Positions 1 to 46,319 of a stretch of 64,000 nucleotides of DNA are shown one piece after another. The translations under genes were made by a program, and so were the position numbers. The notes beneath the pieces are model-generated. The model did not search any database. It worked only from the letters and a program-made list of their open reading frames with translations, and was not told the origin of the DNA. The DNA comes from Coemansia sp. RSA 487. Its lineage: Eukaryota; Kickxellomycota; Kickxellomycetes; Kickxellales; Kickxellaceae. The stretch is taken from NCBI GenBank assembly GCA_027577595.1, contig JANBRJ010000036.1:87585-151584 (forward strand), in the 5' to 3' direction. Position 1 is the first letter of the stretch. Every line of letters begins with the position of its first letter.

Positions 1-2
1 GG

Positions 3-1103
3 GGTGACATTTTATTTGTCAGACGCGGCCTAACAGATATAGGTTCTATGAATTGGGAAACGCCGTTGACTGTTACAAACCAGTATAAGGTTGGAAATGA
101 CTGCAAATATGATTATAATTTCAACACAAATGAAAACGACCTACTTTGTTCAAACACAACAACACATCCTCCGTATACATATTTGACAAACTGCGCTGTT
201 CCATACGGATCGGTTGAAGTATACATTTCAGGAAAAACATACGTCGCTGGTATTTACGTGTATACAGCTTTATTATCAGGCTGGGCTACCTGTACATTGC
301 AAAAAGGGCAAAACAGCATATATTTATTACTTGCCGACTATATTGCGTTTGCTTCCAAAGTTCTTGGCCGCTCTATAAATTATTATCCCAACAGCGGTGG
401 TATCGCCCCTCAATCGGATCCAGGGTACAGCATGACGAAATCCAGTTCTTTATTTATTACGAGAGCTATATTTGGTGATCTCTACGTCAATCAATCAAAG
501 GCGACAATAAGCAGTAGCAGCTCAAGCATGGCGGAGAGCACCAGCCAAGCTCCGAATTCCTCAACCTTTAGTTCAGACTACCAAAGCAGCGACAAAGAAG
601 CTGGTGTAACTAGTGGCGTGGACACTGTTTCTATCTATGCCTCCATATCTAGTTCAGAGATACTATCAACTACATTCAGCAACACTGGAGAAAATTCAAG
701 CGACAATCGAGATAAAGGCTCAAAAAAGGTTATTATTATCGGTGTAGTTTGCGGTGTGCTTGGCGGTTCAATTCTAACATACGTATTATGGTTTCTTTAC
801 AAAAGATGGAGAAAGGCTCACAGAAATATCTACAGAAATAGCGAGGCACGGATCGACATGCAAGGAATGCTTGTTGTCGACTCTGCCTACAATTCAATGC
901 CAGCATCCATATATATGCCCTCTACACCAGTGATACAACGCCTTGCACAAATACCATCTCCGTTAAGATCCAGCGCATCTATGTTAGCACCTATTAGTAG
1001 ATTTGACAGAGAGAGCCTCGAGAGCTTGGAGCAAGGACCATCACCATTATACGCACCCACTTTTCCATCATCGTCAATATGTAAACGACAGAGTTATTCC
1101 TAG
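3..1103 (+). CDS. Trypsin-like pseudoprotease membrane protein, copy A (5' partial)
   Basis: The reading frame is open back to the left edge: the codons before the first ATG (base 48) encode a stretch matching the same part of the copy at 6238-7761 (GD-I/V-x-F-x-RRGL-x-DI), so the gene starts outside the window and base 48 is not its start. What remains is the second half of the trypsin-like ectodomain, with the conserved Cys-Ala-x-Pro-Tyr-Gly-Ser segment where an active S1 peptidase has GDSGG, a Ser-rich stalk, one membrane helix at about bases 727-800, a basic KRWRK stop-transfer and a cytosolic tail. The tail ends near SPLY, a degenerate form of the PPxY motif of the other copies. It most resembles the 6238-7761 copy. 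Catalysis is unlikely by family comparison; the ligand is unknown. Confidence 0.8.
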   Translation, partial: GDILFVRRGLTDIGSMNWETPLTVTNQYKVGNDCKYDYNFNTNENDLLCSNTTTHPPYTYLTNCAVPYGSVEVYISGKTYVAGIYVYTALLSGWATCTLQKGQNSIYLLLADYIAFASKVLGRSINYYPNSGGIAPQSDPGYSMTKSSSLFITRAIFGDLYVNQSKATISSSSSSMAESTSQAPNSSTFSSDYQSSDKEAGVTSGVDTVSIYASISSSEILSTTFSNTGENSSDNRDKGSKKVIIIGVVCGVLGGSILTYVLWFLYKRWRKAHRNIYRNSEARIDMQGMLVVDSAYNSMPASIYMPSTPVIQRLAQIPSPLRSSASMLAPISRFDRESLESLEQGPSPLYAPTFPSSSICKRQSYS

Positions 1104-1629
1104 ACTTTCAATAGATGTTTTATAACCTAGTACATTAATATTTCAACACAAAAACATAATATTTTTTCTACGAGAAAGCATTCACGCAATGATAATAAAA
1201 GACGGAAAATGTGCACTACTTTTACATGTGTTTTTTTTACAAAAAGCATTCTACAAAGCCAAGGCTTTCTAAAAAACGAAATATGGTCTCTTTTAGATTG
1301 AACTACATCTGTCCTTAGTAGATATTGATTTTTCATTTTCTGAAATACGAAGCTGAAAGGGCGTGCTTTCTTTTTGGCTACTCCATTGCTTCTTTGCATC
1401 TTTATATATTTGAGAAACCCATTTCCTTTAAGCCTTTTCACAAGTCATTTGCCTTGTTAAGCAACGGTGAAATTTGCAATATACACGCCAGTCTCTGTAT
1501 ACTTGGCATAGGAAGGACACATCGTCACCGCCATAGTGGGCCCACAATGAGATGTTTGCATATGCTATAGTGGTTTATTTCTGCAACAAGTCTCGAATTT
1601 TAAAAGAAAAGTTTATTAGACAGATGATC
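1104..1629. other. Convergent 3' intergenic region
   Basis: AT-rich space between the stop codons of two convergent pseudoprotease paralogues. The short open frames here have no recognisable product. Nothing else is visible. Confidence 0.5.
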
Positions 1630-3129
1630 TTATTGCTTTTTGAATATAGATTTCCTCTTGTCTCCGCTATTTGTCAATGGCACATCATCGTCATATACTG
1701 GAGGCTGCTCTGAATGAGGTACGCCCATCATATTGGCACCAGCTTGGCTCTGGATCCGCCCATAGTAGGGACTGTTGTCTACAGCTACTTCATCCATATG
1801 TGCCATTGTTGCTCTGGAAACCGGATCCTCAATTGATAGCTTCCGGTTCTTATTCCATTGCCTAAACAGATAGAACAACCCTGCAACAAGAATGACTCCT
1901 CCGACAAATGCTACAACCACAGCAATGATAATGGTCTTGTGATTTGACTTGTCATTGTCGTCATCCTTCTCGCTTGGTGAGGAACCAGTAGCATCCTCAG
2001 ATAAACTTTCTGTATTCGACTCGTTATTGAATTCTAGACTGCTGGCATCGTCTTCACTAAAACTACCCTCATCATCGGAGTCAAAAGACGACTGTAACAA
2101 ATCCTTTGATGACATGTTGCTATCGGACGCTGATTCTGATGATAATGAAGATGATGATGTGAATGTGCCTTGATATTTAAAATAATCACCGCCGACGAGA
2201 CTGACAGTGCTCTTATCTGATGTACCAGGAGTTTTTAGCGTGTAACTGATGTCCAGCTCTGGGGCTATTTCATCGGTATGGGGGTGATAGTAAAACATAT
2301 GTGGGTCGATATTAGTAGCAGCGAATATGATCCAGTCCGACATCATTACGTAATAGTTGCGTACGGTTCCGGAATTACATAAACCATCGTCCCCAGCCTT
2401 TCCACTGACCGATGAGTAGCTGTAGAACCCAGCAAGATACAGAGTATCGTTCATATACGTGTACACAGTGCCGTAAGGAATATCACAAGGCGAAAGGTAG
2501 CTGTCAGGCGAGGGCACTGTGCTTGCGGAGCATGTAAAATCGTAAGAGTTTGTGTTATAAAGAACCGACATTGAGTCGCAGTTAGGGTCTTCTGCCGGCG
2601 GGTTCTTGGAAACTTCAGGATCCTTCCACGTCATAGAGTCCAGGTCGGTTATAGCGCTTCTCGAGTAAACCATATCGCCCCAGTAAAGCTCGCGCTTGAT
2701 TGCTATAGTATTGTTCCAAATTATATCCTGTCCTTTGTTGAATTGAATTACGGCAATGTTGTTTGCTTTTGTAGATGAGTCGTATTTAGGATGTACGGTG
2801 ATGCCATATACTTCATATTTGCCGGCCTTTCCATCGATGCCGTCATCAACATAAGCATCGTAGCTAGTTGAGGAGTTGAGATTAAGCCCGTTTGTGTAGT
2901 CCAAGCAATCAGCGCTAACAAGCGCGGCCAGGTTGGTAAATATCCCTAGCTCGCAAGACGTAATCTTGCCGTTCTTCGCCAGGATACCTCTTTTAATTGT
3001 CTTTAGGTCGCTGGTGACATCGCGTGTGGAAAGATGGGGCAACGAACTTGCTTCTGTAGGCTGGCTACAATGTAAAAGTATACTGCCGATGGCAATACAT
3101 ACGAACAATCTAGCTCGGGAAAAAGGCAT
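1630..3129 (-). CDS. Trypsin-like pseudoprotease membrane protein, copy B
   Basis: 499-aa type I membrane protein. Residues 1-27 look like a signal peptide. Residues about 44-300 have the layout of a chymotrypsin-fold (S1) peptidase with six well-placed cysteines (C59, C75, C184, C200, C215, C251). All three catalytic positions differ by motif alignment: the TAAHC motif reads VSADC (Asp74 for His), NNDIA reads ANNIA (Asn124 for Asp), and C-x-GDSGG reads CDIPYG (Tyr219 for Ser). An acidic Ser-rich stalk (320-395) precedes a membrane helix (about 398-421), a basic RQWNKNRK anchor and a tail with PPVY at 476-479, a WW-domain docking motif. I infer a surface receptor or scaffold rather than a protease. 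It faces copy A tail to tail. No intron is evident. Confidence 0.85.
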   Translation of the reverse strand: MPFSRARLFVCIAIGSILLHCSQPTEASSLPHLSTRDVTSDLKTIKRGILAKNGKITSCELGIFTNLAALVSADCLDYTNGLNLNSSTSYDAYVDDGIDGKAGKYEVYGITVHPKYDSSTKANNIAVIQFNKGQDIIWNNTIAIKRELYWGDMVYSRSAITDLDSMTWKDPEVSKNPPAEDPNCDSMSVLYNTNSYDFTCSASTVPSPDSYLSPCDIPYGTVYTYMNDTLYLAGFYSYSSVSGKAGDDGLCNSGTVRNYYVMMSDWIIFAATNIDPHMFYYHPHTDEIAPELDISYTLKTPGTSDKSTVSLVGGDYFKYQGTFTSSSSLSSESASDSNMSSKDLLQSSFDSDDEGSFSEDDASSLEFNNESNTESLSEDATGSSPSEKDDDNDKSNHKTIIIAVVVAFVGGVILVAGLFYLFRQWNKNRKLSIEDPVSRATMAHMDEVAVDNSPYYGRIQSQAGANMMGVPHSEQPPVYDDDVPLTNSGDKRKSIFKKQ

Positions 3130-3788
3130 CTTATTACAATAAAAGGAATAACAAAATAAAAGTTGTAGAAAAGCAAGAGATGTAGATATAAAACGCTTTG
3201 AAAAGCACTAATGAACCCTGTACCCACTCTCGTTTTTTTGCCTTTTTGAGTTTAGTTTCTCCTTGTATCCTCAAAAATGGAAATTGTTGGTGGTCTGAAA
3301 ATGCATATACAAAGAAGTGGAAACCATTTAAATCTGCAGAAAGGGGAAGGCAAATCCACGGGAATTGTCTGATTGCCAATGCAAGCCAGAAAGAGCCACT
3401 CTTTTGGCTCTGCAAAGACATGCATTAGCTTTCGTTAAGGAAAACAAGCCAAAAAAACCTGAACGACAATATCAGATTCCACTCCAAATTAATTTAGAGC
3501 TTAATTCGACATTGCAAGTATCCTTTTTTCCAAACACGCGAATGGAATGGCTTAATGGTTTCTTTGGCAATAATCATTAAATAATTTTATTAGGCAAGAA
3601 AAAAAGGGTTGTCCTTTTTTTTTGCTTTTAAAAACCATCAAGGCGCAAAAATAAAACTACCAACCACAGCCAGTTTTTTATCGTTGCTAATAAAAAAGCA
3701 TTTTTCAAATACACAAGATTTTCCCTTTTTCGAGTAGCAAGGGGGGGAGGAGAAGCCGAGCTGGGCAGACACAATCTGGGCAAAAAGA
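3130..3788. other. Intergenic: promoter of copy B
   Basis: Upstream region of copy B and 3' flank of the LPMO gene. T- and A-rich runs are present; a TATA-like element (TAGATATAAAAC, plus strand 3182-3193) does not obviously serve copy B. No gene is supported. Confidence 0.4.
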
Positions 3789-4913
3789 TCAAGCCCAGTC
3801 GCAGAGGATCGAGTTGTTGAATGGCTTGCAAGCAGTTTTGGCTGGGCAGCTGATCACAGCCGACCATGTGCCCCAAACACACGCCTGGTAGCCAGCACCA
3901 TCGGACGTGCATGCAAGGGTGCCGTGGGTGCAGGAAGCCGACGAGCCTTCATCTGCGGTAGACTCAGGAGCTGAACCGCCGTCAGTAGTCGACTCGACAG
4001 CAGGGGCATCCGTGGTGGGCTCAGGAGCAGAGTCGTCAGTGGTGGGCTCAGGAGCAGCAGGGGCCGACGAAACAGGAGCCTCTTCACCGACAGGCGAGCT
4101 CTCGCTCTGAACCATGTGGGCCACGGGTGCTACGGATGTGGTCTCGTAGACAGCAGAAGAAGTCGTGGCTTCGTAGACGGCAGGGGTTGTGGTCTCAGCA
4201 GCAACAGGAGTCGCAGAGTACGTGCCATTACCGCCAGACGAAGAGCCGCTAGGCGAGACGGTAACCATCGGCGCATCCTCGTAGTAGTTGAGGCCAGTGT
4301 CGTAGTTGCCGTTGAACGCAGGAATAGTCGGGTAATTGTCATGGTCTGCAATGACCATCTTTTTACCAGTGTACGATGAAGAGCTGGAGCCGGTAATGGC
4401 GACGTCGGCGCAGTTCATGTAGAACTCGCGGTTGCCGATGGCATTGACCCACGACCACGCAAAGACGACGCTGTCGGAGTTGGGCAATTCCTTGGGGAGC
4501 GTGAAGGTGTACTGAAGAACCTCGGGACTGTTGCTAGTGCTCGGTCCGTTGAAGAAAAAGTACTTCAGAACCTCGTAGACAACAGCGAATGTCTTCCCGC
4601 CGTCGTAGGAAACAGAGAACTGCGCGTGACCACCGCCATGAGCAGCGTTGTTTTGCAAGAACTGAACAGTGACAGACTGGCCCGCGGTCCAAGTGGCGAC
4701 AGGCGATGGCCATGGCGTATTAGACTTGCAAAGAACCGGCGAGGAAGGGTCGATGGGGTTCTTGATGTTGTAGTCCCAGCTGGCGCCGGCCGGAAGGGTC
4801 GTAGGCTTGTTGACGCACCAGGGGTTGAAGCGCGGGCAAGGGTCTGTCATGGTCATGTGGGCTGAGACCGATGCAACAAGGGCGGCGGCAATGGCAGAGA
4901 ATTTGAGCAACAT
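3789..4913 (-). CDS. AA11-like lytic polysaccharide monooxygenase with CBM19-like module
   Basis: 374-aa secreted enzyme, predicted to cleave chitin oxidatively with copper. The start is the ATG at 4911-4913; the longer open frame begins at TTG. Residues 1-18 are a signal peptide cut before His19, which would form the copper histidine brace. His92 in an A-H-GGG segment is the likely second ligand, and Tyr165 in NREFYMNCA the axial tyrosine; these match the AA11 pattern (HxxM N-terminus, HGGG, SYDGG, NRE-x-YMNC). A long Ser/Thr/Pro/Glu linker (about 230-325) leads to a six-cysteine module in the last 47 residues (C-x6-C-x9-C-x10-C-x5-C-x8-C), similar to CBM19 chitin-binding domains. A TATATA box lies near 5029-5034, about 115 bp upstream. 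AA11 assignment is by motif; chitin as substrate is inferred from the family. Confidence 0.85.
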   Translation of the reverse strand: MLLKFSAIAAALVASVSAHMTMTDPCPRFNPWCVNKPTTLPAGASWDYNIKNPIDPSSPVLCKSNTPWPSPVATWTAGQSVTVQFLQNNAAHGGGHAQFSVSYDGGKTFAVVYEVLKYFFFNGPSTSNSPEVLQYTFTLPKELPNSDSVVFAWSWVNAIGNREFYMNCADVAITGSSSSSYTGKKMVIADHDNYPTIPAFNGNYDTGLNYYEDAPMVTVSPSGSSSGGNGTYSATPVAAETTTPAVYEATTSSAVYETTSVAPVAHMVQSESSPVGEEAPVSSAPAAPEPTTDDSAPEPTTDAPAVESTTDGGSAPESTADEGSSASCTHGTLACTSDGAGYQACVWGTWSAVISCPAKTACKPFNNSILCDWA

Positions 4914-6237
4914 TTTTCTTCTATGGACAGATGTATCAACGGCTGAAACAAAAGGCGACTGAGGAGAGAGGGGTGGCAAAGGGAACAAGTAAGCTTCTAG
5001 CTAAAGGAACGTTTAATACGGCCAGCGTATATAGTTGCAAGGAACTAAAAAGAGAAAAAAGAGGTATTTATGAAAAATGAGAATGAGAACAGGAGCTGCT
5101 ACTGAAGAGAAAAAAAAAGAGAAATTTGAAAGCGGTTCCTCCAGATCACGTTGCCTTTATACCGAATAGACCGGGGTGTCGCAGTTTGGTTTGAATTGGC
5201 AAACCGAGCTATTTGTTTGGCGGTTTACAATGAGAAAATTACAGACCACAAGTATCTGCAGCGATTGAAAATTTTCTCAAGTAATGTGATGAACGATTGG
5301 CCAGGCACTATCGCTGGCTCATTACAAATGTAAAAGTGGAAGGTAGATCCTAGATGCAACATAGTGGCCATTCCTTATTTTTAGATCTTGTCCATTGCTG
5401 CGCTTTGTTGCATTTCGCATGCAGCTTTACAGCTGCCTGCATCGATATGAGCAGTTTATTCCGCTTCTGACAAAAACATTATTCTCTCAGTCTTCCTTTT
5501 TCAGCGAAAGCGTGACCAAAAAAAAATTCAATGACTTTGTTCAGTGTGGCCCTACTTCCCAACGGAGAACCGCTTCTCACTTTGCTCTGAAAACGTTTCA
5601 GAGTTGGGAAAACAGACAATTGCTGCGACTGATAGAAGGCTTATCAGTCAGATGTGCATATGGCTCATTGGATATATATCCAGATTGGGGAGGTGGGTTT
5701 TTCTTTTCAATCCCGAATCGCGTCTATGTTTTTACGAAAGGCAAAAGCCATTCTGTTCCAAGAAATTCGACAATTGAAAGAAAGCCCATTTCTGATAAAA
5801 TACAAAATCATTATAATAGCAGATATCTTGCTGGCTGAAGATTGTCAATTCCGCAAATATGTAAACACGACCTGCTGTTAAAATGATCTGCCTTGTCTTT
5901 TGGTGTCTCAAAACCTGATTAAAACATGTACAATGACATAAATGAGCGATTATTTGCAGAAACCATAAAAGTGAAAAACAGCCATTCAGTTGGCCTTTCG
6001 AGACGAATTGTCAAACAGTGAATGGCCAGTGACTGTTTCTCAGCGACATGATCCAGACCCGCAATGTGAGCGATCAGAAAGGATATGCATAAAAACAGCC
6101 TTTCCATTTTATCTTTTTTAAACACCATACTGTATGCTCTCTATAACATATAAGTACATTTTTACTAAATAAAGCTAAAGGTGTAAAAGCTGCTAGTCAG
6201 CCGCTGATGTACTTGGTGTTGACGTTATTTGTGCTGG
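4914..6237. other. Intergenic: LPMO promoter and 3' flank of copy C
   Basis: 1.3 kb without a convincing gene. The LPMO promoter occupies the left part (TATA-like sequence near 5030). An open frame at 5419-5838 (plus) has no recognisable domain or homologue and is not annotated. Confidence 0.4.
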
Positions 6238-7761
6238 TTATCTTGGTGCTGTTGTCGATATCCGTGTGTTGGGTTCGTATAGCGGGGGCAGATCATAGTC
6301 CAGATCATCGAAAATGTCTCTGTTAAAGTGATTGGTAGGCGGTGGTTGTGTAGATGGAGTCGGTCCCGATTCGACGAGCGAGTGTGTGGATGGCATTGAT
6401 GGAGCATTATTTGAATCAATAACAAGCATCGTTTGCATGTACATTTGCGCGTCCTTGTCCTTGTATACGTTCTTGTGCGATCTCTGCCACCTCTTGTAAA
6501 AGTACAACGATAAGCATGCCAAAATTATACCACCAAGTGTCCCGCAAACAGCTCCAATGATTGCATTCTTCTTTGAAGATGCGCTTCGGTTGCTGCTTGC
6601 GCCAGTATAGCCATCTTGATTCATGTCCGATCGATCTGCAGTGCTGTAGCCTTCATCATCACCATCACCATTCTGCTCCTTTGCAGTGTTTGTAGCCGAA
6701 CCATTAGAGCCATTTTGGGCTTCAGTGCCAGTTACACTGCGAGTTGAATCGCTCTGAGGCTTATCGCCGCTGGTTTCAGTACTACTTACAGCCGAAGAAG
6801 CTGGTGTACTTGAGCTGCTATCGTCAACCACCACATCGTTTTGATTTGCGTAAAGATCCCCGTCCAAAAATGTAACCCCATTGTCTGGTGTGGCTGGCGG
6901 TGACATGCTATATCCTGAATCTGATTGAGGCGATATGCCACCGCTGTTTGGATAATAACTGATCGAACGACCAAGCACCTTGGATGCAAACGCAATATAA
7001 TCGGCCAGTAGTATATAGCTGCTAGCTTGCAGGAAACGCAATGTGCATTCTATGTTTGTCCCCATTAACACGGTGTACGCGTAGAGACCAGCGACATACA
7101 CTTTCCCCGAAATGTACACACTGACAGACCCGTATGGAATGGCGCAGTTTGTCAGGTATGAAAGTGGTGCGTTGGTGGTTGCGTTGGAGCAGAAAAAGCT
7201 GTTTTCATTCGCTTTGAAAACATGCGAATTGTACCCGCATGAATTTGTTGTATCCAAGTTGTTGAGTGTAGTCATCGGTGTTGACCATTCCATAGCATTT
7301 ATATCTGCTAGACCACGTCTGGCAAATACAACGTCACCCCAGCTGCTCCCTCGGTTTATTGCAATGGAGTTTGACCAACTTGATGATCCGCCTTTGTTGA
7401 ACTGTAGCACAGCTATAGGGTTGGTATTTGTGTTGGCATCGTAATCTGGATGTACGGTTATTGAATAGACTGTGTATTTGACAGGAGTTTTGTCGATTCC
7501 TGCATCCAGATACACCTCGTACTTGGTGTTTTTATTAACGCTGCTTCCTGAAAAGTCGAGACATGGAGCTGCTACAAATGCAGCTGTGCTATCAATAACT
7601 CCGAGCTCGCAAGAGCTTTGTTTCCCGTTTTTAACAAGTACTCCGCCTTTAGTGCTTGAAATATCAGATACAGTGTCGCGAACGGCAAAAGCCCACGTCT
7701 TTGACGTCAAGAGAGTTGTGACGAACAAAATTGAAATGTAAAAATACAGTAACGAAAACAT
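6238..7761 (-). CDS. Trypsin-like pseudoprotease membrane protein, copy C
   Basis: 507-aa paralogue. A signal peptide/anchor at residues 1-25 precedes an S1-like ectodomain (about 38-290). Substituted triad positions: AAPC (Pro66 for His), TNPIA (Pro115 for Asp), C206-A-I-P-Y-G (Tyr210 for Ser). A Ser/Thr/Asn/Gly-rich stalk is followed by a membrane helix at about 400-422, KRWQRSHK, and a tail containing DYDLPPLY, with the PPxY motif at 492-495. Pro at the His position makes enzymatic activity implausible. It is transcribed divergently from copy D across a 1.16-kb shared promoter. It is closest to copy A, sharing the GRSI-x-YYPNSGGI segment and the juxtamembrane tail. A receptor-like or adhesion role is inference. 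Confidence 0.85.
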   Translation of the reverse strand: MFSLLYFYISILFVTTLLTSKTWAFAVRDTVSDISSTKGGVLVKNGKQSSCELGVIDSTAAFVAAPCLDFSGSSVNKNTKYEVYLDAGIDKTPVKYTVYSITVHPDYDANTNTNPIAVLQFNKGGSSSWSNSIAINRGSSWGDVVFARRGLADINAMEWSTPMTTLNNLDTTNSCGYNSHVFKANENSFFCSNATTNAPLSYLTNCAIPYGSVSVYISGKVYVAGLYAYTVLMGTNIECTLRFLQASSYILLADYIAFASKVLGRSISYYPNSGGISPQSDSGYSMSPPATPDNGVTFLDGDLYANQNDVVVDDSSSSTPASSAVSSTETSGDKPQSDSTRSVTGTEAQNGSNGSATNTAKEQNGDGDDEGYSTADRSDMNQDGYTGASSNRSASSKKNAIIGAVCGTLGGIILACLSLYFYKRWQRSHKNVYKDKDAQMYMQTMLVIDSNNAPSMPSTHSLVESGPTPSTQPPPTNHFNRDIFDDLDYDLPPLYEPNTRISTTAPR

Positions 7762-8919
7762 TATTAGTTAAAGAACAAAGGGACCATATAAATAAATAAA
7801 AGGCCAACAGAGCAGAAACAAAAATACAATAAACGGACCATTTAGGCGAAGATAATCCATGAATAGCTCTCCTCGTTTTCAAAGAAAAGCGCTCTTATAA
7901 GCTTCTTCGAAACGGATACACTTTTCAATTCCCACTCAAAAAAACTCTTTAAGAATGATTTTCCCTGGAAACTACAGCCAAAGTTTCTTTGTACCTGTTT
8001 TTTTTTGGCAAACGGATTTACTATTTAGTGAACATTTGCCTTTGTGTGCATAATGTGTGATTTTCTGCTTTCGCTCAATTTTTGCTACATAGAAAGGGAA
8101 GCGTTTCCATTTGAAACCAATTTCCGGTTCGATAGCAGTTTCCAATATCCTTCGTTTATACCTTTTCTCCACACACCAGCCAGAGAAACGGAAACAGTTA
8201 ATTTAATCACAAACGGTCTTGGAACCGGTCTCGCATCAATGGCTCCCCGCTAATTAGCAATGACTTTTTTGTTCAGTGTCCATTTTTGGTCCAGTGCACT
8301 GCATGTAGAAACCAACCTTTTCTATGCAAGTGAGCTACTTGTATAGATGCAAAGTGGTGGTTCAATAATGTCATGTAGTTTGTGCAATCACAACAACAAA
8401 CTTTTAATCACGTTTGCCAACAACATTTGGTAAAAACATCACTTGGAACAGTGCCATGTCCAGTGGTTATTTTAGGCTTTTGTTATTTAAAGGCAAGCTC
8501 CTATAAAGTTTTCCAGAAAAAGAGAATTATTTCCATATGTTTTTACTCATACAGGAACTAGGGTATAAATGACAGCAACATCGTCTTCAGTTGAGAGTGA
8601 AAGTGTGCAAGGCTTGGTTATCGATTTGCACTACGCGCGTTTTCCAATTTCTGCTTTTTAGACTTGTGTGTGGCTCGAAGCAAGAAAAGATATTTTGACA
8701 AGGGAAAGAACAACTGCATGCACCCTTTTCACACGAAATTGACATTTTTTTCAGCCATTTGCCATCTTGGCTGCAAGTACATTTAGGCACCTTTCTTCTC
8801 TTTAGTATCTGATTGTTGGTTCAAATAACTTTTTTTTCCCTTTTCTGTTTATCTCCTCAATCACCATCAGCACACCCTTTTGTTCTCTATTGTTTACTTT
8901 TTTAATCACTGGCAGAACA
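7762..8919. promoter_or_regulatory. Shared divergent promoter region of copies C and D
   Basis: Intergenic region between two head-to-head paralogues. It contains TATA-like stretches on both sides (for example around 7790-7800) and pyrimidine-rich tracts just before the copy D start. No gene is supported inside. Confidence 0.4.
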
Positions 8920-10359
8920 ATGCTCATTAGTTGCGCTCGTTCGATTTGCTATTCCCTGCTATTGCTTGCGGAGATGGCATCAAGCACAAGCGTCAAGCAA
9001 AGTCCTACACGACGTGACATCAGTGCACAAATTGCTGGAATGAAGGGTGGAATATTGGTAAAGGATGGTAAACAAACGTCTTGTGAGCTCGCGGTGCTGG
9101 ACAGCAAGTCGTCAATAGTCAGTGCTGACTGCCTAAATTATTCAGGCGGAAGCATAGACTCTAGCGTCAACTACGAGGTGTATCTGGACGATGGTATTGA
9201 TGGAAAGGCGGCCAAGTATAGTGTGGATAAGGTTTCTGTCAATCCAAACTACAACGCAACGAGTCTGGCCAACAACTTGGCAGTTCTCCAGTACAATTCT
9301 GATAGTACGGACACGTGGAACAACACTGTTGGCATTGGTCGTGACACATACTGGGACGGGCTGATATTTGTGCGTCGTACGCTTTCCGATATTGGACAGA
9401 TGGAGTGGGAAACGCCGGTCATAAACAGTACGCTTGAAGATAATCAGGATATTTGCAAGTCAATGTCGGTGCTTTTCGAAGCAAACAACATTGACTTTGA
9501 ATGTAGCGATCAGTTGATAGACGCGCCAATAACGTCTCTTGCTCTCTGTCAAGTCCCCTTTGGATCGGTGTACGCGATAATAGGCGATGGTATTTATCTT
9601 GCAGGTATATACAGTTACACGGCAACATACCAAGGTTCTGGTAACCTATGCTCCACAGGATTCAAAAGCAGCTACTACTTGTTACTCTCAGACTATTTGA
9701 CATACACATCGAACGTGATCGGCAGTTACCCCGCCTTTTATCCACTGTCAAACGCGACGTTCCCAAACACAAATGCATATTACGCCATGGACGAACCTAC
9801 AGATACGCAAGACTCTAACTACCGTGTAACAGGCGGCGACTATTACTCCCTCCAAGGCGACAATCTCAATCAGGCCTTATCGGCTCACTCTGAGGGGATA
9901 TCGTCGGATGGATTGCTTTCTGAAACAGAAACCGATAGTGGCAGCTCTAACTCATCAGATCAAAGCCACGACTCGGGTAATAACGGGGGACAGCCCAATA
10001 AAACCGCAATCATTGCTGGTGTTTGCGCCTCAGTTGGCGGTATTCTACTTGCATGCTTAATGTTCTTCCTGTATCGTCTTTGGAAACGTCGCAATACCAA
10101 CAAGGTAGATCCACTTACGCAGGCTCAAATTCGGGATATGCTTGAAACCGACATTGGAGGCACCGTTGTGCAGCCAGCTAATACGGGAAGAGGGAGCAGA
10201 GGTGGAGACATAGCTGTCGCACCCATGCTTGATTACGATTTGCCGCCAATATACGATGATCCTCAGCCAAACACTGCCACTGCTGCATTGGATGTTTCAA
10301 ACGGCACCAACTCTGACTATTCAAAAGTATACGTGGATAATAAGAGACATGCAGATTGA
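8920..10359 (+). CDS. Trypsin-like pseudoprotease membrane protein, copy D
   Basis: 479 aa from the ATG at 8920, which gives a short signal peptide (MLISCARSICYSLLLLAEMA); an in-frame ATG at 8890 would add ten residues. The ectodomain has the S1-like order with substituted triad positions: VSADC (Asp70), ANNLA (Asn119), CQVPFG (Phe214). Potential N-glycosylation sites are frequent. A Ser/Asp-rich stalk leads to a membrane helix starting near NKTAIIAGVC, then RLWKRR and a cytosolic tail with DYDLPPIY; the PPxY motif is at 442-445. The DYDLPPxY segment is shared with copy C although the surrounding tails have diverged, which points to selection on the motif. Function is unknown. Confidence 0.85.
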   Translation: MLISCARSICYSLLLLAEMASSTSVKQSPTRRDISAQIAGMKGGILVKDGKQTSCELAVLDSKSSIVSADCLNYSGGSIDSSVNYEVYLDDGIDGKAAKYSVDKVSVNPNYNATSLANNLAVLQYNSDSTDTWNNTVGIGRDTYWDGLIFVRRTLSDIGQMEWETPVINSTLEDNQDICKSMSVLFEANNIDFECSDQLIDAPITSLALCQVPFGSVYAIIGDGIYLAGIYSYTATYQGSGNLCSTGFKSSYYLLLSDYLTYTSNVIGSYPAFYPLSNATFPNTNAYYAMDEPTDTQDSNYRVTGGDYYSLQGDNLNQALSAHSEGISSDGLLSETETDSGSSNSSDQSHDSGNNGGQPNKTAIIAGVCASVGGILLACLMFFLYRLWKRRNTNKVDPLTQAQIRDMLETDIGGTVVQPANTGRGSRGGDIAVAPMLDYDLPPIYDDPQPNTATAALDVSNGTNSDYSKVYVDNKRHAD

Positions 10360-26026: not shown

Positions 26027-26855
26027 TTGGAACTTTAAAATGTATAATTAAGGAGTGAAAAAATAGAGGGACGCTAAAGAGAAAAGAGGTCTTATTTTTA
26101 GTGCACACTCTCCATGCTGCATTTCCCATTTTTTTTCACAGTGCTTGTTTGTTTGGCAATAAAAGTGTGGGGTAAAAGTGGGAGAAAAAAGAAAGGCAGT
26201 GAAACCATTGGAATCCGTGTGTTTAGATCCCCTAACTCTCAGATCAGGCCACCCCAGAGCGCCTATATAAACGGCTGCCATCACTTTTGTTTGCTTTAGG
26301 TTGGGTGGGTTTAATTCCCACCTGTGGCTCTTTGGGAGAACCTTTCAAGGTTGCAGGGCGCGTTGTGCTTATTTAGGCGGGTTTCAACTATTTAGACCAA
26401 TCTGCCCCTTAAGGTGGATTTTAAGTCTGGCCGGAGCTAAAGCAGAAAAGGCGCGGAAGTGTCCGCTTGGAGTCTGGTGTTTAGGCATTGGCACGCTGGC
26501 GTAGGCCTGGGCGTGCTCAAGGCCATTGAAAAGCTGGGTAATGCGTGAGGCTGGAAACAGAGCAACGAAAACCGGCTGCACTAGTTCAGTCAAGGGACTG
26601 CATTTCTGTCTTCGCTACTGCCTCTGGTTTACTGGGCTGGCCGGCCTCTGCCACTTGCAACTTTTTGCTCTTTTTTTCTGATGTGTTTCGTATCGTGCGT
26701 TGGATGCGACATTTGGAGTTACTGCCAGCATGTATTAGTTTTTTTATCTAGTAAAATTTTTTGAATGAATAAAAGAATGTCGTATATATCGATATGCGAT
26801 TAGAAAGAAAAACACTGTTTCTTTAGCGCCAGCTTCTATATATATTTTTAAGGAT
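26027..26855. other. Intergenic region with TATA-like elements
   Basis: 829 bp. A CCTATATAAACGG TATA-like element near 26261-26273 has no gene close downstream; GTATATATCG near 26780 lies about 75 bp before the 26856 gene and is its likely TATA box. The middle is GC-richer than other spacers but holds no supported frame. Confidence 0.4.
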
Positions 26856-27566
26856 ATGAAGGTTAAAAGTGTAATATACGCATTAGCTGCACTGCCAGCA
26901 ATGGCAGCGGCTACAACTACAGCAGGGGTGGTGGATATCAAGGCAGACGAAAACGGATGCACAATCCCGTTGCCGTTTGGTGGGTCAATAGTGGTAGCAC
27001 GACTTCCGTTCTTCCTGTCGCTGCCATTGTGGGGCAAAATGACGAAGACCCACATGCATGAGCCAACGCCATTGCCACCACCCGCACACGCACTAACGAC
27101 ATTGCCTGTTTGCGATGCCAGTGGTGCAGAGTTTTACCCAAGCGACTGTATCCCCCCGGCACAGTCATCGGAAGCGCTGGCGAAACGAGGAATTCCAGAT
27201 CCATTGGATACTGCGCCTTATCGCTACAGGGACGATGAGGAAATGCCGTGGGCTGAACAGGATTCGGAGTTTGATGGCCTTGATACGCGTGCTCGGTCAA
27301 TGGCGGGTGGTACCTCTGAGGAAGAGTATGAGGAGTCGTACGGATGGACCGGGGGGATCCATTATCCGGCAGAAACGCCAGCACTGCCGGTGCCAAGAAA
27401 CGATTACACTGAAGAATACAACGAGTGTGTGACAGGTATGATGCGGTGCACAAGTGGAAGACGTGCGTTTGATACTTGCGTGCATGGCAAATGGGGCACG
27501 ATCCGCAAATGTCCGCAAGGAACAAAGTGTGCTCCAGTGCCTGAAGATTCTATCGTCTGTGCGTGA
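26856..27566 (+). CDS. Secreted protein with CBM19-like chitin-binding module
   Basis: 236 aa. Residues 1-19 form a signal peptide. The middle is low-complexity and acidic, with a dibasic Lys-Arg (110-111, in EALAKR) placed like a Kex2 cleavage site, so the mature protein may start at Gly112. The C-terminal 46 residues (191-235) carry six cysteines spaced C-x6-C-x9-C-x10-C-x5-C-x9-C, nearly identical in spacing to the tail of the AA11-like LPMO at 3789-4913, with the shared G-x-W after the third Cys. I infer that it binds chitin. No catalytic domain is present, so it may be a wall-associated or chitin-masking protein. Confidence 0.7.
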   Translation: MKVKSVIYALAALPAMAAATTTAGVVDIKADENGCTIPLPFGGSIVVARLPFFLSLPLWGKMTKTHMHEPTPLPPPAHALTTLPVCDASGAEFYPSDCIPPAQSSEALAKRGIPDPLDTAPYRYRDDEEMPWAEQDSEFDGLDTRARSMAGGTSEEEYEESYGWTGGIHYPAETPALPVPRNDYTEEYNECVTGMMRCTSGRRAFDTCVHGKWGTIRKCPQGTKCAPVPEDSIVCA

Positions 27567-28041
27567 CGTTCTTCCTAAAAGATATATAGGGGTCTTTCTT
27601 GATTTCTTTAATGCTTGGGTCAATGACGTTATTGCGCCTATCTCAATATGTGACATGGTTTCTGGTTTGTAATTTTTCATTTTGCAGGAGAGAAGAAGGG
27701 ATACGTTTGCGCAGCTTAGTTGGGATTTCTTGGCATGTCTGAAGCATCTCGCAAAAATAGTTTGACAGAAGCTAAAATCAAGCGGAGTTTCTGGGGGAGG
27801 GAAGACAAACAACAATAGTTTAATTTCTAAAGTGCCAAGAGCCTTGCTATGTTCTGGACTACCTCAAGAAAGCTGGGCTCCGGTTTTTTCTTCGACGGGT
27901 ATATAAGGACGAGCAGAAGTTGACCTAATCACCATGTTTTACATACTCCATCAACAGCAACAATAATAGTTTTTTCTTTTCTCAGCAACCACTTTGCAAC
28001 ATTTACTAGTTTATCCAAGCAATTTTAATAGCAAACCCACA
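27567..28041. promoter_or_regulatory. Promoter of the 28042 secreted-protein gene
   Basis: Contains a strong TATATAAG box at about 27900-27907. A ten-codon upstream frame starts at the ATG near 27931 and could dampen translation, unless removed: CTTTTCTCAG at about 27975-27985 also looks like a 3' splice site, so a 5'-UTR intron is possible. Confidence 0.5.
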
Positions 28042-28716
28042 ATGAAGCTCAACATCGCATCCACCATCGCCGTCGCTGCATCTTTCTCGACTGCCGCCAT
28101 CGGCGCGCCCATGTCCACAGCCACGGTCGAACCAGCCACGGCAACCCACGATCTGCACACCTTTACTGACGAGTACGGGTTGACTCTGCTTATCGACTAC
28201 GGCAACACCGCATACGTTGGACTGGAGCTCGGGCTCCCAGGAGTTGACGGCATCTACGCCGCCAACGGGCCACAGCAAACGGCAAGCGGCACGGATACAT
28301 GGGTTGATGTACACGACGGTGTAGAGGCAGTCATCGATTACGCTCACCCAAACCATTACACCGTCTACGATTCTGCGCACAGCCCAATCGCCACCATCAG
28401 CTACGAGCCGGATACAGCGTCAGCCCCCGAATCGACTGCTCCGCCGCACTATCTGATGACCTTCGCTAACGGCAACGGAGAAGTATTGCTGGTTGACGAA
28501 GCTGTTGACAATGCAGGGATCCTCGAAGCAGGCATCCCGGGCGTCGACGGCGTCTACATGGTGCCAGCCGGAGGGTTCCCTGTAGGCGAGGGAACCGGAT
28601 TGGAGACATGGGTCGATAGCGCGGATGGAATCCAAGTTGTTCTCGATCGCGCAGACCCGAACCATTACACCGTATACGATGCCAGTGGCAGCCCTATCCA
28701 AACTGGCGGTTTCTAA
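28042..28716 (+). CDS. Secreted protein with two tandem ~80-aa repeats
   Basis: 224 aa from the ATG at 28042; the frame to 27994 starts with TTG. A signal peptide ends near residue 21 (AIG-A). Two homologous units follow at about 39-117 and 138-219. Each begins with a T-F-x-[DN]-x-x-G-x-x-LL-[IV]-D segment, contains GxPGVDG-[IV]-Y, then TWVD-x-x-DGI/V, and closes with PNHYTVYD-x-x-x-SPI. The proteins are acidic and free of cysteine in the repeats, suggesting a beta-rich extracellular fold. I do not recognise the family. Its stop codon is 19 bp from that of WDR6, on the opposite strand. Confidence 0.75.
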   Translation: MKLNIASTIAVAASFSTAAIGAPMSTATVEPATATHDLHTFTDEYGLTLLIDYGNTAYVGLELGLPGVDGIYAANGPQQTASGTDTWVDVHDGVEAVIDYAHPNHYTVYDSAHSPIATISYEPDTASAPESTAPPHYLMTFANGNGEVLLVDEAVDNAGILEAGIPGVDGVYMVPAGGFPVGEGTGLETWVDSADGIQVVLDRADPNHYTVYDASGSPIQTGGF

Positions 28717-40743: not shown

Positions 40744-41976
40744 TCAATCAGTTCCCTCTTTATCTTTGCCAACATTTCCATCATCATCAACAAGCGTGGT
40801 ATTACCACCACCGTCAATAATGCTATTGTCATCGCTGCCACTACCACCATCCGTATAACCACTATTGCCATTTGCGTCATTAGCAGCATAATCAGCGTCG
40901 TCGTCATCACAGTCGACGTAATAATCATCGTTATCGTCATCGTCATTGCTACCGTCATTGGCAGCAGTTGTGCCTGTGTCCATTCCGCTTCGAGTTGTTG
41001 GAGATGTAGATGTTGAAATGGTGTCGACGCCATCTCCAGCTGTTGATGGCGTCGACACTGTTGATATGTTGATAATGCCTGATAGATCCAAAGGATCTGC
41101 ATCTGCTGCGGGATTAGCGAGCGTATCAGCTTTTCCTTGGGCCGAAGCAGACGCAGCTGTAGGGTTTGCATCAGCTTGTGAATTTATTGGCGGTACTGAA
41201 GACGTTTGGCTGTTGGTGTCTGCCTTGGTGCTATCACCACCATCGCCACCGCTGGAATTGACTAGGGCATTTCTAAAATTGTTATTGGTACTGCCACTTC
41301 CATTTGACGTGACAGTGATGTTTGCAGAGTTATTATACAGGTCAAGACCAGTGTCATAATTGCCATTGAAATCTGGAAGTGGTGGGTATTTAGAATGTCT
41401 GGCAATGACCGCCTTTGGGCCTGTATAGCCAGTTGAGCTGCTTCCCTTGATAGTGACATCAGCACAATTCATGTAGAACTCGTTGTTACCTATGGCATTT
41501 ACCCAAGTCCACGCAAACACTGCATGGTCGGTGGATGGCAAATCTGATGGCAAGCTAAAAGTATAATCGCGCACAGTGCTCTTGCCACCGTTATTTGGGT
41601 CACCAGTGTAGAAGCAGTACTTTAGTACTTGATGCAAGACAACAAAAGTGTTCCCGCCGTCGTATGATATTGACCACTGGCAGTGTCCGCCGCCATGTGT
41701 GGCGCTCCCATCGAATGTGACAGTAATGGACTGACCAGCAGTCCATGTAGCGCAGGGTGTTGGGTACGGGACGGTGTACTTGCACAGGGGCTGAAATTCA
41801 CCAAGCGGAGCAGTTAAAGTATAATCCACCTCCTGGCCAGTGGGAGTTTTCGGGCACTGCTTGCCTTTAGGCGAGTAGCGCGGGCATGGATCTACCAGTT
41901 CCATGTGTGCCTGTACAACAGACAGAAGAGTAACTATATATAGTATGAATATGTATACGAGATACATTTGTAGCAT
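40744..41976 (-). CDS. AA11-like lytic polysaccharide monooxygenase without CBM
   Basis: 410 aa. The signal peptide (1-23, ending VQA) would be cut before His24, the N-terminal copper ligand. His94 in THGGGHCQ and Tyr168 in NNEFYMNCAD complete the predicted copper site. The catalytic domain (about 24-230) parallels the enzyme at 3789-4913: both have DPCPR, ATWTAGQS, SYDGG, VFAW-[TS]-WVNAIGN and an FNGNYDTGL segment after the core. Instead of a CBM, the C-terminal 180 residues are low-complexity, Ser/Thr/Ala-rich then strongly acidic with Asp/Asn runs, ending without a hydrophobic GPI signal. A second in-frame ATG (41967) could also start it. Chitin is the likely substrate by family. Confidence 0.8.
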   Translation of the reverse strand: MLQMYLVYIFILYIVTLLSVVQAHMELVDPCPRYSPKGKQCPKTPTGQEVDYTLTAPLGEFQPLCKYTVPYPTPCATWTAGQSITVTFDGSATHGGGHCQWSISYDGGNTFVVLHQVLKYCFYTGDPNNGGKSTVRDYTFSLPSDLPSTDHAVFAWTWVNAIGNNEFYMNCADVTIKGSSSTGYTGPKAVIARHSKYPPLPDFNGNYDTGLDLYNNSANITVTSNGSGSTNNNFRNALVNSSGGDGGDSTKADTNSQTSSVPPINSQADANPTAASASAQGKADTLANPAADADPLDLSGIINISTVSTPSTAGDGVDTISTSTSPTTRSGMDTGTTAANDGSNDDDDNDDYYVDCDDDDADYAANDANGNSGYTDGGSGSDDNSIIDGGGNTTLVDDDGNVGKDKEGTD

Positions 41977-44159: not shown

Positions 44160-45470
44160 TTTTAACAAGTTTGCCGATTAACCGGTAAAAGATATTTTTT
44201 TGTTCTAGTAAAAGAAAAAGGTAGTTTGATGATATCTATTCAAGAGCAAAGCTATAGTTGGCTTAGAAAATAAAATGGCAATGGAAAGGCGACCAGAATG
44301 GCCGATTTAAATAGCCACGGTTCCCCACACGAACTATTGGATATTATAAAAAAACAAGTCAACTTCACAGCATGTCTGTTGTATTACTTTCAAATAGTTT
44401 GGTGCTCTAGAATAATTGGTAAAATTATAATTTGTTTGATATCCATCGGTATATTGACTGGTAGGAAGAGGTAGGTGGCTGTGTCTCGAATAAGAAAGCC
44501 AGAGTACTGCATATGTGGAAGCACTTTAAGTTGATCGATCTAGTTCCAGTTATGTCGCACTTGCAAACTGAATTTGTACCATGTAATTATGCGAAACTAT
44601 GTGTAGGTTCACTCACTGTAGTTTGCAATGCAAAATAAGGAACGCTTCCAGAACTAAAGCATTACACAAGAATATTGGCAATTGCCTGAAACCTCAAACT
44701 CCACTGATCATGCATGCATCCAGAGTCTAGAAAACAGACAATCTGATTTAATTGCCATAGTCGAAAATCCAATCTTATGATATTAAGGAGCGGCTGATTA
44801 TGATTAGGCGACGACAATTTTCTAATGTCCTGTGTTTACTGCTGTGCGTGTTTTGTGCGTGCATGGGGTTGACTAACTCACATAAGGAAAAGCGGTGGTG
44901 GTTGTTGCAAACGATGTTTGTTTCTTGGTTGAAAAGGAAAAAGAAGCAAAGCTAAAGAAGCCCTTTGACTGAGGGGGAGTCAAACAAACCATTGCTGCTG
45001 TTTCTGTTTTTGATTGAATTTTGGTTTCTGGTATCTTCTGTTTGACACTTTTGCAGACTTTCACGTCGTGAAAGCTTTGTCTTATGCAAATCTTCCTTTC
45101 TCCCAAATGGCGTTTCCATCTTTTGGATTCTCAGTTCGATTAAATCAGGAACTATTTATATATCTATTTATACAATTGCCTAGTGGTGTATTTTTGGGGA
45201 GGAAGGGGATATAAATAGAGCAAAAATACGAAAAATGCTCTTTTCCACCTGAGAATCTTATGATACTTTGTCCAACGTTCCGTATTAAGTGCCGAGCCAA
45301 AATTGAAAAGGTGGCTTTTTCTGAGCTTGGTTGATGGAAATGGAAAAAAGTATTTAATTGACCAGCATAAAGTCATTTTTCTCTCTGCCTTCTCTTTTTC
45401 TTCTCTTTTATTATTTCCAAATATTTACCATTATTTTTCTCCTTGGCATCTCTTTTTCACTCACCAAACA
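44160..45470. other. Intergenic divergent promoter region
   Basis: 1.3 kb between two genes for surface-type proteins transcribed away from each other. GGATATAAATAG at about 45207-45218 is a TATA-like element for the right-hand gene, about 255 bp upstream. No gene is supported. Confidence 0.4.
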
Positions 45471-46319
45471 ATGAGGCATGTTCGATGGGCCACATACCTA
45501 TTCCTAACCACAGCGTTCCTAACAACGCTATCGCATGGCGTTGGAGCTCAGGATACTACAACGCCTGCGGATGCAAACCCCACCGACAGTCCTACTAGCA
45601 AGCCATCAGACCCACCGACGTCATCGACCGAAAGTCCCACACCAACGACTTTGTCAAATCCTCCAACAACAACGACGCCTACACCAACTGATACTCCGCC
45701 TACAACGCACACAGACAGCCCCACACCCACACCCACACCAACTGATACTCCTACCGATGAAACGGTTACCTCCACATCCACAACAACTATCACGTCATTC
45801 CCCACATCAACGCCATCAACCTCGAACGAGCCATCCAGCGATTCGCACACACCAACAGCAACAGCACCAACGTCGCAAGGAGACACACAAGCAACTCAAG
45901 AATCGCATACTGGAAGGGAAGAAACGTCATCAAACGAGCCCACGCCCACAGACAGCACCACAGACTCTAGCGACAATGACAAAAGCGGAAGAAAGCTACC
46001 GTCAGGTGCTATAGCAGGCATAGTTATTGCTGCGCTAGTCATGATTGTTGGACTAGTCGCTGGGTACTTGTTCTGGCGGCGGCATAAGCAAAAGACGCAG
46101 TATGCGCAAAAGATACATTATGCGGAGTTTGTCGAATTCAATCCATCCGTTTCAAACAATAGGCTGTCGTCGCATTTACCGCCAGCCCCCTTTTATAACA
46201 CTGATGCTGGTGGCCCTGGCGCTTCGTCGTCGTCGTCAGCCGGGGTTCCTCAGCAGCACGGTTCCCGGCATGCGCATATCAATGATCCATCGCTTTTGCG
46301 TGAGCTCGATGAGGCCTAA
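45471..46319 (+). CDS. Type I surface protein, MID2/WSC-sensor-like
   Basis: 282 aa from the ATG at 45471 (upstream frame is UTR). A signal peptide (1-26, ending GVGA) is followed by about 140 residues of Thr/Pro/Ser-rich sequence (PTDTPP, PTPTPTPTD repeats), expected to be densely O-mannosylated, one membrane helix at about 180-202 (AIAGIVIAALVMIVGLVAGYLF), a strongly basic RRHKQK stop and an 80-residue cytosolic tail with polySer and a C-terminal LLRELDEA. The architecture matches fungal wall-stress sensors or mucin-like surface proteins, though no WSC cysteine domain is present. Assignment as a sensor is inference. Confidence 0.65.
   Translation: MRHVRWATYLFLTTAFLTTLSHGVGAQDTTTPADANPTDSPTSKPSDPPTSSTESPTPTTLSNPPTTTTPTPTDTPPTTHTDSPTPTPTPTDTPTDETVTSTSTTTITSFPTSTPSTSNEPSSDSHTPTATAPTSQGDTQATQESHTGREETSSNEPTPTDSTTDSSDNDKSGRKLPSGAIAGIVIAALVMIVGLVAGYLFWRRHKQKTQYAQKIHYAEFVEFNPSVSNNRLSSHLPPAPFYNTDAGGPGASSSSSAGVPQQHGSRHAHINDPSLLRELDEA

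Follow-up and report, generated by a model that had tools for sequence, protein, structure and literature searches.

What might a fungus do with trypsin-like proteins that sit in its membrane and have lost their catalytic residues? The question is raised by four paralogous genes, here called A to D, in a 64,000-nucleotide stretch of the genome of Coemansia sp. RSA 487 (GenBank assembly GCA_027577595.1, contig JANBRJ010000036.1, positions 87,585 to 151,584 of the forward strand), referred to as the window and numbered from its first letter. The genes lie in open frames within positions 1-10359, A and B convergent, C and D divergent (Table 1). An earlier note on this sequence had described them as a cluster of dead trypsin-like proteases. 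The reading tentatively favored here, with a probability slightly short of even, is that they encode type I plasma-membrane receptors with a catalytically dead S1A (trypsin-family) head, a Ser/Thr-rich stalk, and a cytosolic PPxY motif that would serve turnover by an Rsp5/NEDD4-type ubiquitin ligase.

Four paralogs with one architecture

The kinship of the four genes is evident from tblastn comparisons between the copies, with E-values from 2e-80 to 1e-25. A and C form the closest pair, identical at 62% of 157 aligned ectodomain sites; the remaining five pairs are 30-40% identical. Across the window tblastn found no fifth copy, the extra matches being a stalk/transmembrane stretch (45873-46091, E 0.002) and a hit at chance level (E 0.90). 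The former stretch lies in a gene for a protein with a Ser/Thr/Pro-rich stalk and a single transmembrane helix, recognized by eye and without a Pfam match at E<=0.001; its weak similarity is to the stalk and transmembrane part of B only and is probably due to composition.

All four proteins share a cysteine-bearing ectodomain (about 280-290 amino acids in the full copies B, C, and D), a Ser/Thr-rich stalk (48-93 amino acids in the full copies; Ser plus Thr 29-43% across the four, with 43% in A), one C-terminal transmembrane helix, visible by hydropathy as a single strong hydrophobic stretch per copy, and a tail of 76-91 amino acids in the full copies and 99 in A. This layout was judged from composition and hydropathy, and the borders between its parts were placed by eye. 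A signal-peptide-like start can likewise be seen by eye in B, C, and D; the hydropathy threshold was passed by C alone. Both the gene arrangement and the succession of Ser-rich stalk, single helix and tail given in the earlier note are borne out by the open frames, tblastn, composition, and hydropathy, the tail being predicted to face the cytosol.

Substitution rates were estimated for five of the six pairs (A-B was left out), and the ectodomain values are usable for A-C only. In this pair the nonsynonymous rate (dN) lies well below the synonymous rate (dS) in the ectodomain (NG86 0.318 and 1.267; YN00 0.338 and 1.036), as expected of a protein that is maintained; the tail values (NG86 0.528 and 2.379) complete a picture that points to purifying selection on both parts. 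Constraint appears weaker in the tails of A and D (1.130 and 1.600). All other pairs tried were saturated and gave no finite dS, so the proposed comparison of ectodomain with tail yielded purifying selection for both in A-C but no ranking of one against the other. Pseudogenes are ruled out by the long open frames of all four copies, the partial A included, and by purifying selection where it was measurable. A chance cluster of open reading frames is ruled out by the paralogy, with E-values down to 2e-80.

The first half of the ectodomain

By sequence, the N-terminal barrel is established as S1A. A profile built from the N-terminal halves of B, C, and D and compared with the PDB gave 27 listed matches, all of them S1A (best E 0.0026); they belong to only six kinds of protein and are thus not independent. 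The corresponding profile of all four ectodomains matched 24 sequences at E<=10, of which 22 are S1A (best E 0.0098) and two are not. The 22 are TMPRSS2 (15), tPA (4), and protein C (3), all S1A proteases. In the profile alignment with TMPRSS2, the second Asn of the family motif 'anniav' falls in the Asp column of 'NNDIAL'. When the N-terminal halves of B, C, and D were aligned with bovine trypsin, the score was reached by none of 300 shuffles in each case. In Pfam, a hand-filled consensus of the ectodomain matched Trypsin alone (E 0.0037, 17.6 bits).

Predicted structures lead to the same family. In the AlphaFold2 models of C and D, built from four-sequence alignments, the N-terminal barrel shows the strand order and, at the His57 position, a three-residue helix. 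Foldseek searches of the PDB with these models returned 824 (D) and 920 (C) matches at E<=10, with 172 and 364, respectively, at E<=0.001; the 50 matches listed for each model are all S1A by name (best E 1.8e-5 for D and 1.6e-5 for C). Template-modeling scores lie at 0.23-0.28 when normalized to the query, and the root-mean-square deviation of long alignments is at least 13 Å, so the matches cover the N-terminal barrel and, for D, also weakly some parts of the remainder. A fold unrelated to chymotrypsin, which the earlier note had allowed for, did not emerge among the listed matches.

Other searches were less informative. Copy D alone, the sole single copy tried, matched nothing in the PDB. 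NCBIfam gave no Trypsin match for the four full proteins and hit only stalk/transmembrane stretches in A and B, one example being MapZ in B (E 0.00065; 18.6 bits, cut-off 700). No relatives were confirmed in IMG/VR (50 pattern matches) or GTDB (26 pattern matches); these negatives weigh little, since these databases cover viruses and prokaryotes, the scan relied on short patterns, and the same scan with bovine trypsin confirmed no bacterial S1A protein (28 pattern matches) and thus failed as a positive control.

The second half of the ectodomain

For the second half, assignment to S1 leans on how the cysteines are spaced and on the order in which weak motifs follow one another. B, C, and D have six cysteines of the mature ectodomain in common, the last four of which are also present in A. 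In trypsin numbering, the interval 42-58 is the same in the family and in trypsin (16 and 16); 58-168 (108-109 against 107) and 168-182 (15-16 against 14) are nearly so, whereas 182-191 (15 against 11) and 191-220 (33-36 against 24) are longer. All cysteines of the S1A disulfides 42-58, 168-182, and 191-220 are present, and the disulfide pattern proposed earlier is a putative one.

Three short pieces of trypsin were slid along the four C-terminal halves, with 500 shuffles each. The C-terminal 16-mer, from Val227-Tyr228 to the C-terminal helix, found its best site at an aligned position in all four copies, weakly in each (score reached by 47 shuffles in D, 41 in C, 184 in B, and 11 in A). The best site of the 209-216 piece, which covers the Gly211-Ser214-Trp215 strand, is aligned in B, C, and D and not in A (57 shuffles in B, 363 in C, 35 in D, and 281 in A). 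The C-terminal register chosen by hhalign is identical to that of the local alignment with trypsin. Judged from these features, a complete two-barrel fold is likely. The S1 layout claimed in the earlier note thus stands for the N-terminal barrel, by profiles and Foldseek, while the second half is not recognizable by sequence.

Catalytic positions

In the local alignment with bovine trypsin, the His57 column contains Asp in B, Pro in C, and Asp in D, and the Asp102 column contains Asn, Pro, and Asn, respectively. The Ser195 column is occupied by Tyr in A, B, and C and by Phe in D. These are the replacements that had been read from the sequence before, including the Tyr of the partial copy A. 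A global MAFFT alignment agrees on the changes at His57 and Asp102 and differs in the C-terminal half, where its Ser195 column contains Trp, Ala, Asn, and, in D, Ser. The local alignment was preferred for its agreement with the spacing of the cysteines and because hhalign, although not significant, chose the same C-terminal register. With the column placed elsewhere by the global alignment, replacement of Ser195 rests on the Cys191 anchor.

Further changes in the local alignment concern Asp194, which is Pro in all four copies, Gly193 (Val or Ile), and Asp189 (Thr, Ser, Thr, and Ala in A to D). An IVGG-type start is absent from B, C, and D; the start of A lies beyond the window. The ectodomain of D (residues 25-312) contains no histidine at all, the nearest being residues 323 and 350 in the stalk. 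This excludes a Ser-His-Asp mechanism within the D ectodomain, whatever the alignment, and an intact triad elsewhere, the other outcome foreseen earlier, was accordingly not encountered there. Five histidines remain in the ectodomain of B and two in that of C, so the loss of the triad in these copies depends on the alignment. By the signs readable from their sequences, the four proteins are pseudoproteases. It is very improbable that they are still enzymes with a rearranged active site. No positive evidence for this emerged; the C-terminal half could in principle accommodate such a site, and in the global alignment the Ser195 column is filled by a Ser in D, but the lack of histidine in the ectodomain of D and the changed His57 and Asp102 columns of B, C, and D, on which both alignments agree, argue against it.

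Canonical inhibitors grip the Asp189 pocket and the oxyanion region, both of which are changed in the local alignment. This speaks against the idea that the proteins are decoys, soaking up protease inhibitors and so shielding the fungus's own secreted trypsins. Some S1 pseudoproteases do work as decoys or cofactors (PMC13194640), and Zoopagomycota generally carry several PnmB-like genes, with 21 hits in Linderina pennispora (PMC8683493); the decoy role is nevertheless improbable here.

Stalk, tail, and possible function

A PPxY motif occurs at one aligned tail position in B, C, and D, although these tails otherwise share only 23-28% identity; in C and D it is part of LDYDLPP[LI]Y. In 20,000 rounds of shuffling, the motif arose in 1.4% of B, 5.8% of C, and 1.9% of D tails, and in all three together in one round; as the copies are related, its shared position indicates retention rather than independent origin. 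PPxY is a ligand of WW domains, and these three tails carry a putative docking site for WW-domain ubiquitin ligases. In yeast, Rcr1 interacts with Rsp5 via cytoplasmic PY motifs: VPEY binds, and PPSY has a cooperating role. Comm and PRRG are parallel cases in animals (PMC5578492).

Under the receptor reading, the head would be a catalytically inactive S1A trypsin-fold domain that acts as a binding module. The stalk, probably O-mannosylated, would carry it out through the cell wall, and the PPxY motif would dock a WW-domain protein, most likely an Rsp5/NEDD4-type ubiquitin ligase. Surface level, and perhaps ligand uptake, might then be set by ubiquitin-driven endocytosis. Rather than cleaving an extracellular target, the proteins probably bind one; the fold from which the head derives binds peptides, which makes a protein or peptide the most likely kind of ligand. 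A stronger version is less likely than not: an endocytic receptor class in which a dead trypsin captures the ligand, PPxY couples capture to Rsp5-type ubiquitylation, and clustered duplication has diversified the whole. If the receptor reading is right, a protease fold was recruited independently by fungi to make surface receptors, and the PPxY tail would be a simple and testable link from head to uptake.

The same stalk and helix could belong to Wsc/Mid2-like sensors of wall integrity or mechanical stimuli, with an unusual head, in which the stalk would act as a spring, the head would grip the wall or an outside protein, the tail would signal to a Rho guanine nucleotide exchange factor, and PPxY would serve turnover only. 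Wsc/Mid2 sensors have a signal peptide, a type I transmembrane helix, a tail of 92-120 amino acids, and a Ser/Thr-rich, O-mannosylated ectodomain (PMC6469404), a layout that the present proteins match with tails of 76-99 amino acids; in addition, copy A has a sub-threshold Pfam Mid2 match over stalk and helix (E 0.064, 13.5 bits against 23.2). This match is, however, limited to a compositionally biased stretch in one of the four copies, the Pfam search of the four proteins revealed no WSC domain, and the four diverged heads would suit diverse ligands better than a single wall ligand. A sensor role is on balance rather unlikely.

Fungal adhesins are usually GPI (glycosylphosphatidylinositol)-anchored wall proteins. 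Clustered, diverged paralogs on stalks, with an AA11-like gene between B and C (see below), might also be adhesins whose heads attach to the surfaces of a substrate, of prey, or of mates and whose tails serve trafficking alone. This alternative is less probable than the sensor: a single transmembrane helix and a tail motif kept in three copies go beyond what an adhesin would require.

Evidence weighing against the receptor reading

Several results count against a dead-trypsin receptor with a ligase-binding tail. Pfam support for the head stays below the gathering cut-off of PF00089 Trypsin (20.6 bits), which is missed both by the consensus and by the ectodomain of B (13.2 bits, E 0.077); the ectodomains of C and D have no Pfam Trypsin match, nor do the four full proteins at E<=10. 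The hhalign comparison of the whole ectodomain with one trypsin reached E 0.00036, yet with a probability of 37% and over just 29 columns of the N-terminal half. Model confidence is low: mean predicted local distance difference test values (pLDDT) are 40.1 for D and 39.1 for C, with ten-residue means of 50-82 confined to about residues 11-100 and below 40 in the region of the C-terminal barrel in both models.

The second half fares worse. Its profile matched one PDB sequence, which is not S1 (E 0.46), and hhalign against the second half of trypsin was not significant (E 0.18). Of 300 shuffles, 12 (D), 209 (C), 188 (B), and 10 (A) reached the score of the alignment with trypsin. The third sliding piece, 191-200 with Ser195, performed at chance (187 of 500 shuffles in D, 350 in C, 437 in B, and 278 in A) and had its best site at the Cys191 anchor in C and D but in neither A nor B.

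As to the tail, copy A lacks PPxY. Moreover, a PY motif does not necessarily imply dependence on a ligase: the role of Rcr1 in chitin deposition is independent of Rsp5, and the midline role of Comm is independent of Nedd4 binding (PMC5578492). The motif makes a WW partner likely, with turnover by a ligase as one possible consequence.

Relation to known systems

Trypsin-fold pseudoproteases are known in animals, where S1A members such as haptoglobin, the beta chain of hepatocyte growth factor (HGF), protein Z, and insect serine protease homologs have a trypsin-like fold that was reused for binding after catalysis was lost (PMC13194640), as is proposed for the present proteins. The fungal host and membrane layout are unusual: the animal proteins are mostly secreted, although 3 of 13 honey-bee serine protease homologs may be membrane-associated (PMC1761132), whereas the proteins described here combine a Ser/Thr-rich stalk, a C-terminal transmembrane helix, and a PPxY tail with a head of which the N-terminal half alone is recognizable by sequence. 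PnmB-like S1 proteases, multiple in Zoopagomycota (PMC8683493), are a possible source family within fungi. PnmB itself is an active protease, in contrast to these triad-less, membrane-anchored proteins.

Wsc/Mid2 sensors have in common with the family the signal peptide, the Ser/Thr-rich stalk, the one transmembrane helix, and the short cytosolic tail; they differ in the head, which is S1-like here and not WSC, and the Mid2 cut-off was not reached. Rcr1/2, Comm, and PRRG resemble it in having one transmembrane helix and a cytosolic PY motif able to recruit Rsp5/NEDD4. Comm is described as relatively short and Rcr1/2 as similar to it in structure, and no pseudo-trypsin head is described there (PMC5578492); the PPxY of the present family is a candidate WW ligand.

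Among the matches listed in the literature searched there was no fungal family of membrane-bound S1 pseudoproteases, which is weak evidence of absence as subscription journals were mostly not covered; nor was a link of such proteins through PPxY to ubiquitin-driven trafficking found reported there. The aligned PPxY in three of the four tails, on which that proposed link is based, is new here and is not mentioned in the earlier note. Expansions of trypsin-like genes have been found in insect-associated fungi and Zoopagomycota. A large survey of fungal serine proteases set aside likely inactive homologs (PMC5567314), so that families of this kind may be overlooked.

Neighboring genes and other features of the window

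The gene between B and C encodes an AA11-like lytic polysaccharide monooxygenase (LPMO), with PDB matches to 7p3u (E 1e-23) and to the AA11 structures 4mah (E 3e-15) and 9exj (E 9e-11); in Pfam only AA9 was matched, below threshold. AA11 enzymes act on chitin. Of the chitin-active LPMO proposed earlier, the AA11-like identity is supported by the three PDB matches, while the chitin activity is presumed. A second LPMO paralog about 36 kb away is 47% identical over 280 amino acids and passes Pfam LPMO_10 (27.6 bits, cut-off 23). Both have a His directly after the presumed signal peptide, as seen by eye. The LPMO is tied to the pseudoprotease family by position alone, and the second paralog has no family copies nearby.

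Table 1. Positions of the genes, motifs, and other features in the window
Feature	Position	Strand	Remarks
Copy A	<3-1103	+	5' end outside window; second ectodomain half 3-488; transmembrane helix ~726-803; 99-residue tail; SPLY at site of PPxY in B, C, and D
Copy B	1630-3129	-	499 residues; ectodomain ~2164-3042; stalk; transmembrane helix ~1861-1938; tail with PPVY
PPVY	1693-1704	-	tail of B, residue 476
AA11-like LPMO	3789-4913	-	between B and C; C-terminal Cys-rich module
Cys-rich module of LPMO	3792-3950	-	
Copy C	6238-7761	-	507 residues; ectodomain ~6850-7689; stalk; transmembrane helix ~6496-6570; tail with PPLY
PPLY	6277-6288	-	tail of C, residue 492
Copy D	8920-10359	+	479 residues; ectodomain ~8992-9855, without histidine; stalk; transmembrane helix ~10000-10083; tail with PPIY
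PPIY	10243-10254	+	tail of D, residue 442
Signal recognition particle RNA gene	26398-26616	+	Rfam RF01856
Second Cys-rich module	27384-27563	+	end of a protein
Secreted-looking protein	27994-28713	+	two tandem units
Second LPMO paralog	40747-41976	-	
Stalk and transmembrane protein	45468-46316	+	Ser/Thr/Pro-rich stalk

The Cys-rich module of the first LPMO, which has no Pfam match at E<=0.001, recurs at the end of another protein of the window (37% identity over 46 amino acids, E 9e-11 in a single comparison). It presumably resembles a chitin-binding module of the CBM19 type. Elsewhere, a signal recognition particle RNA gene was identified by Rfam (Protozoa_SRP, 95.6 bits, cut-off 65), and a secreted-looking protein without a Pfam match at E<=0.001 consists, by eye, of two tandem units of about 90 amino acids.

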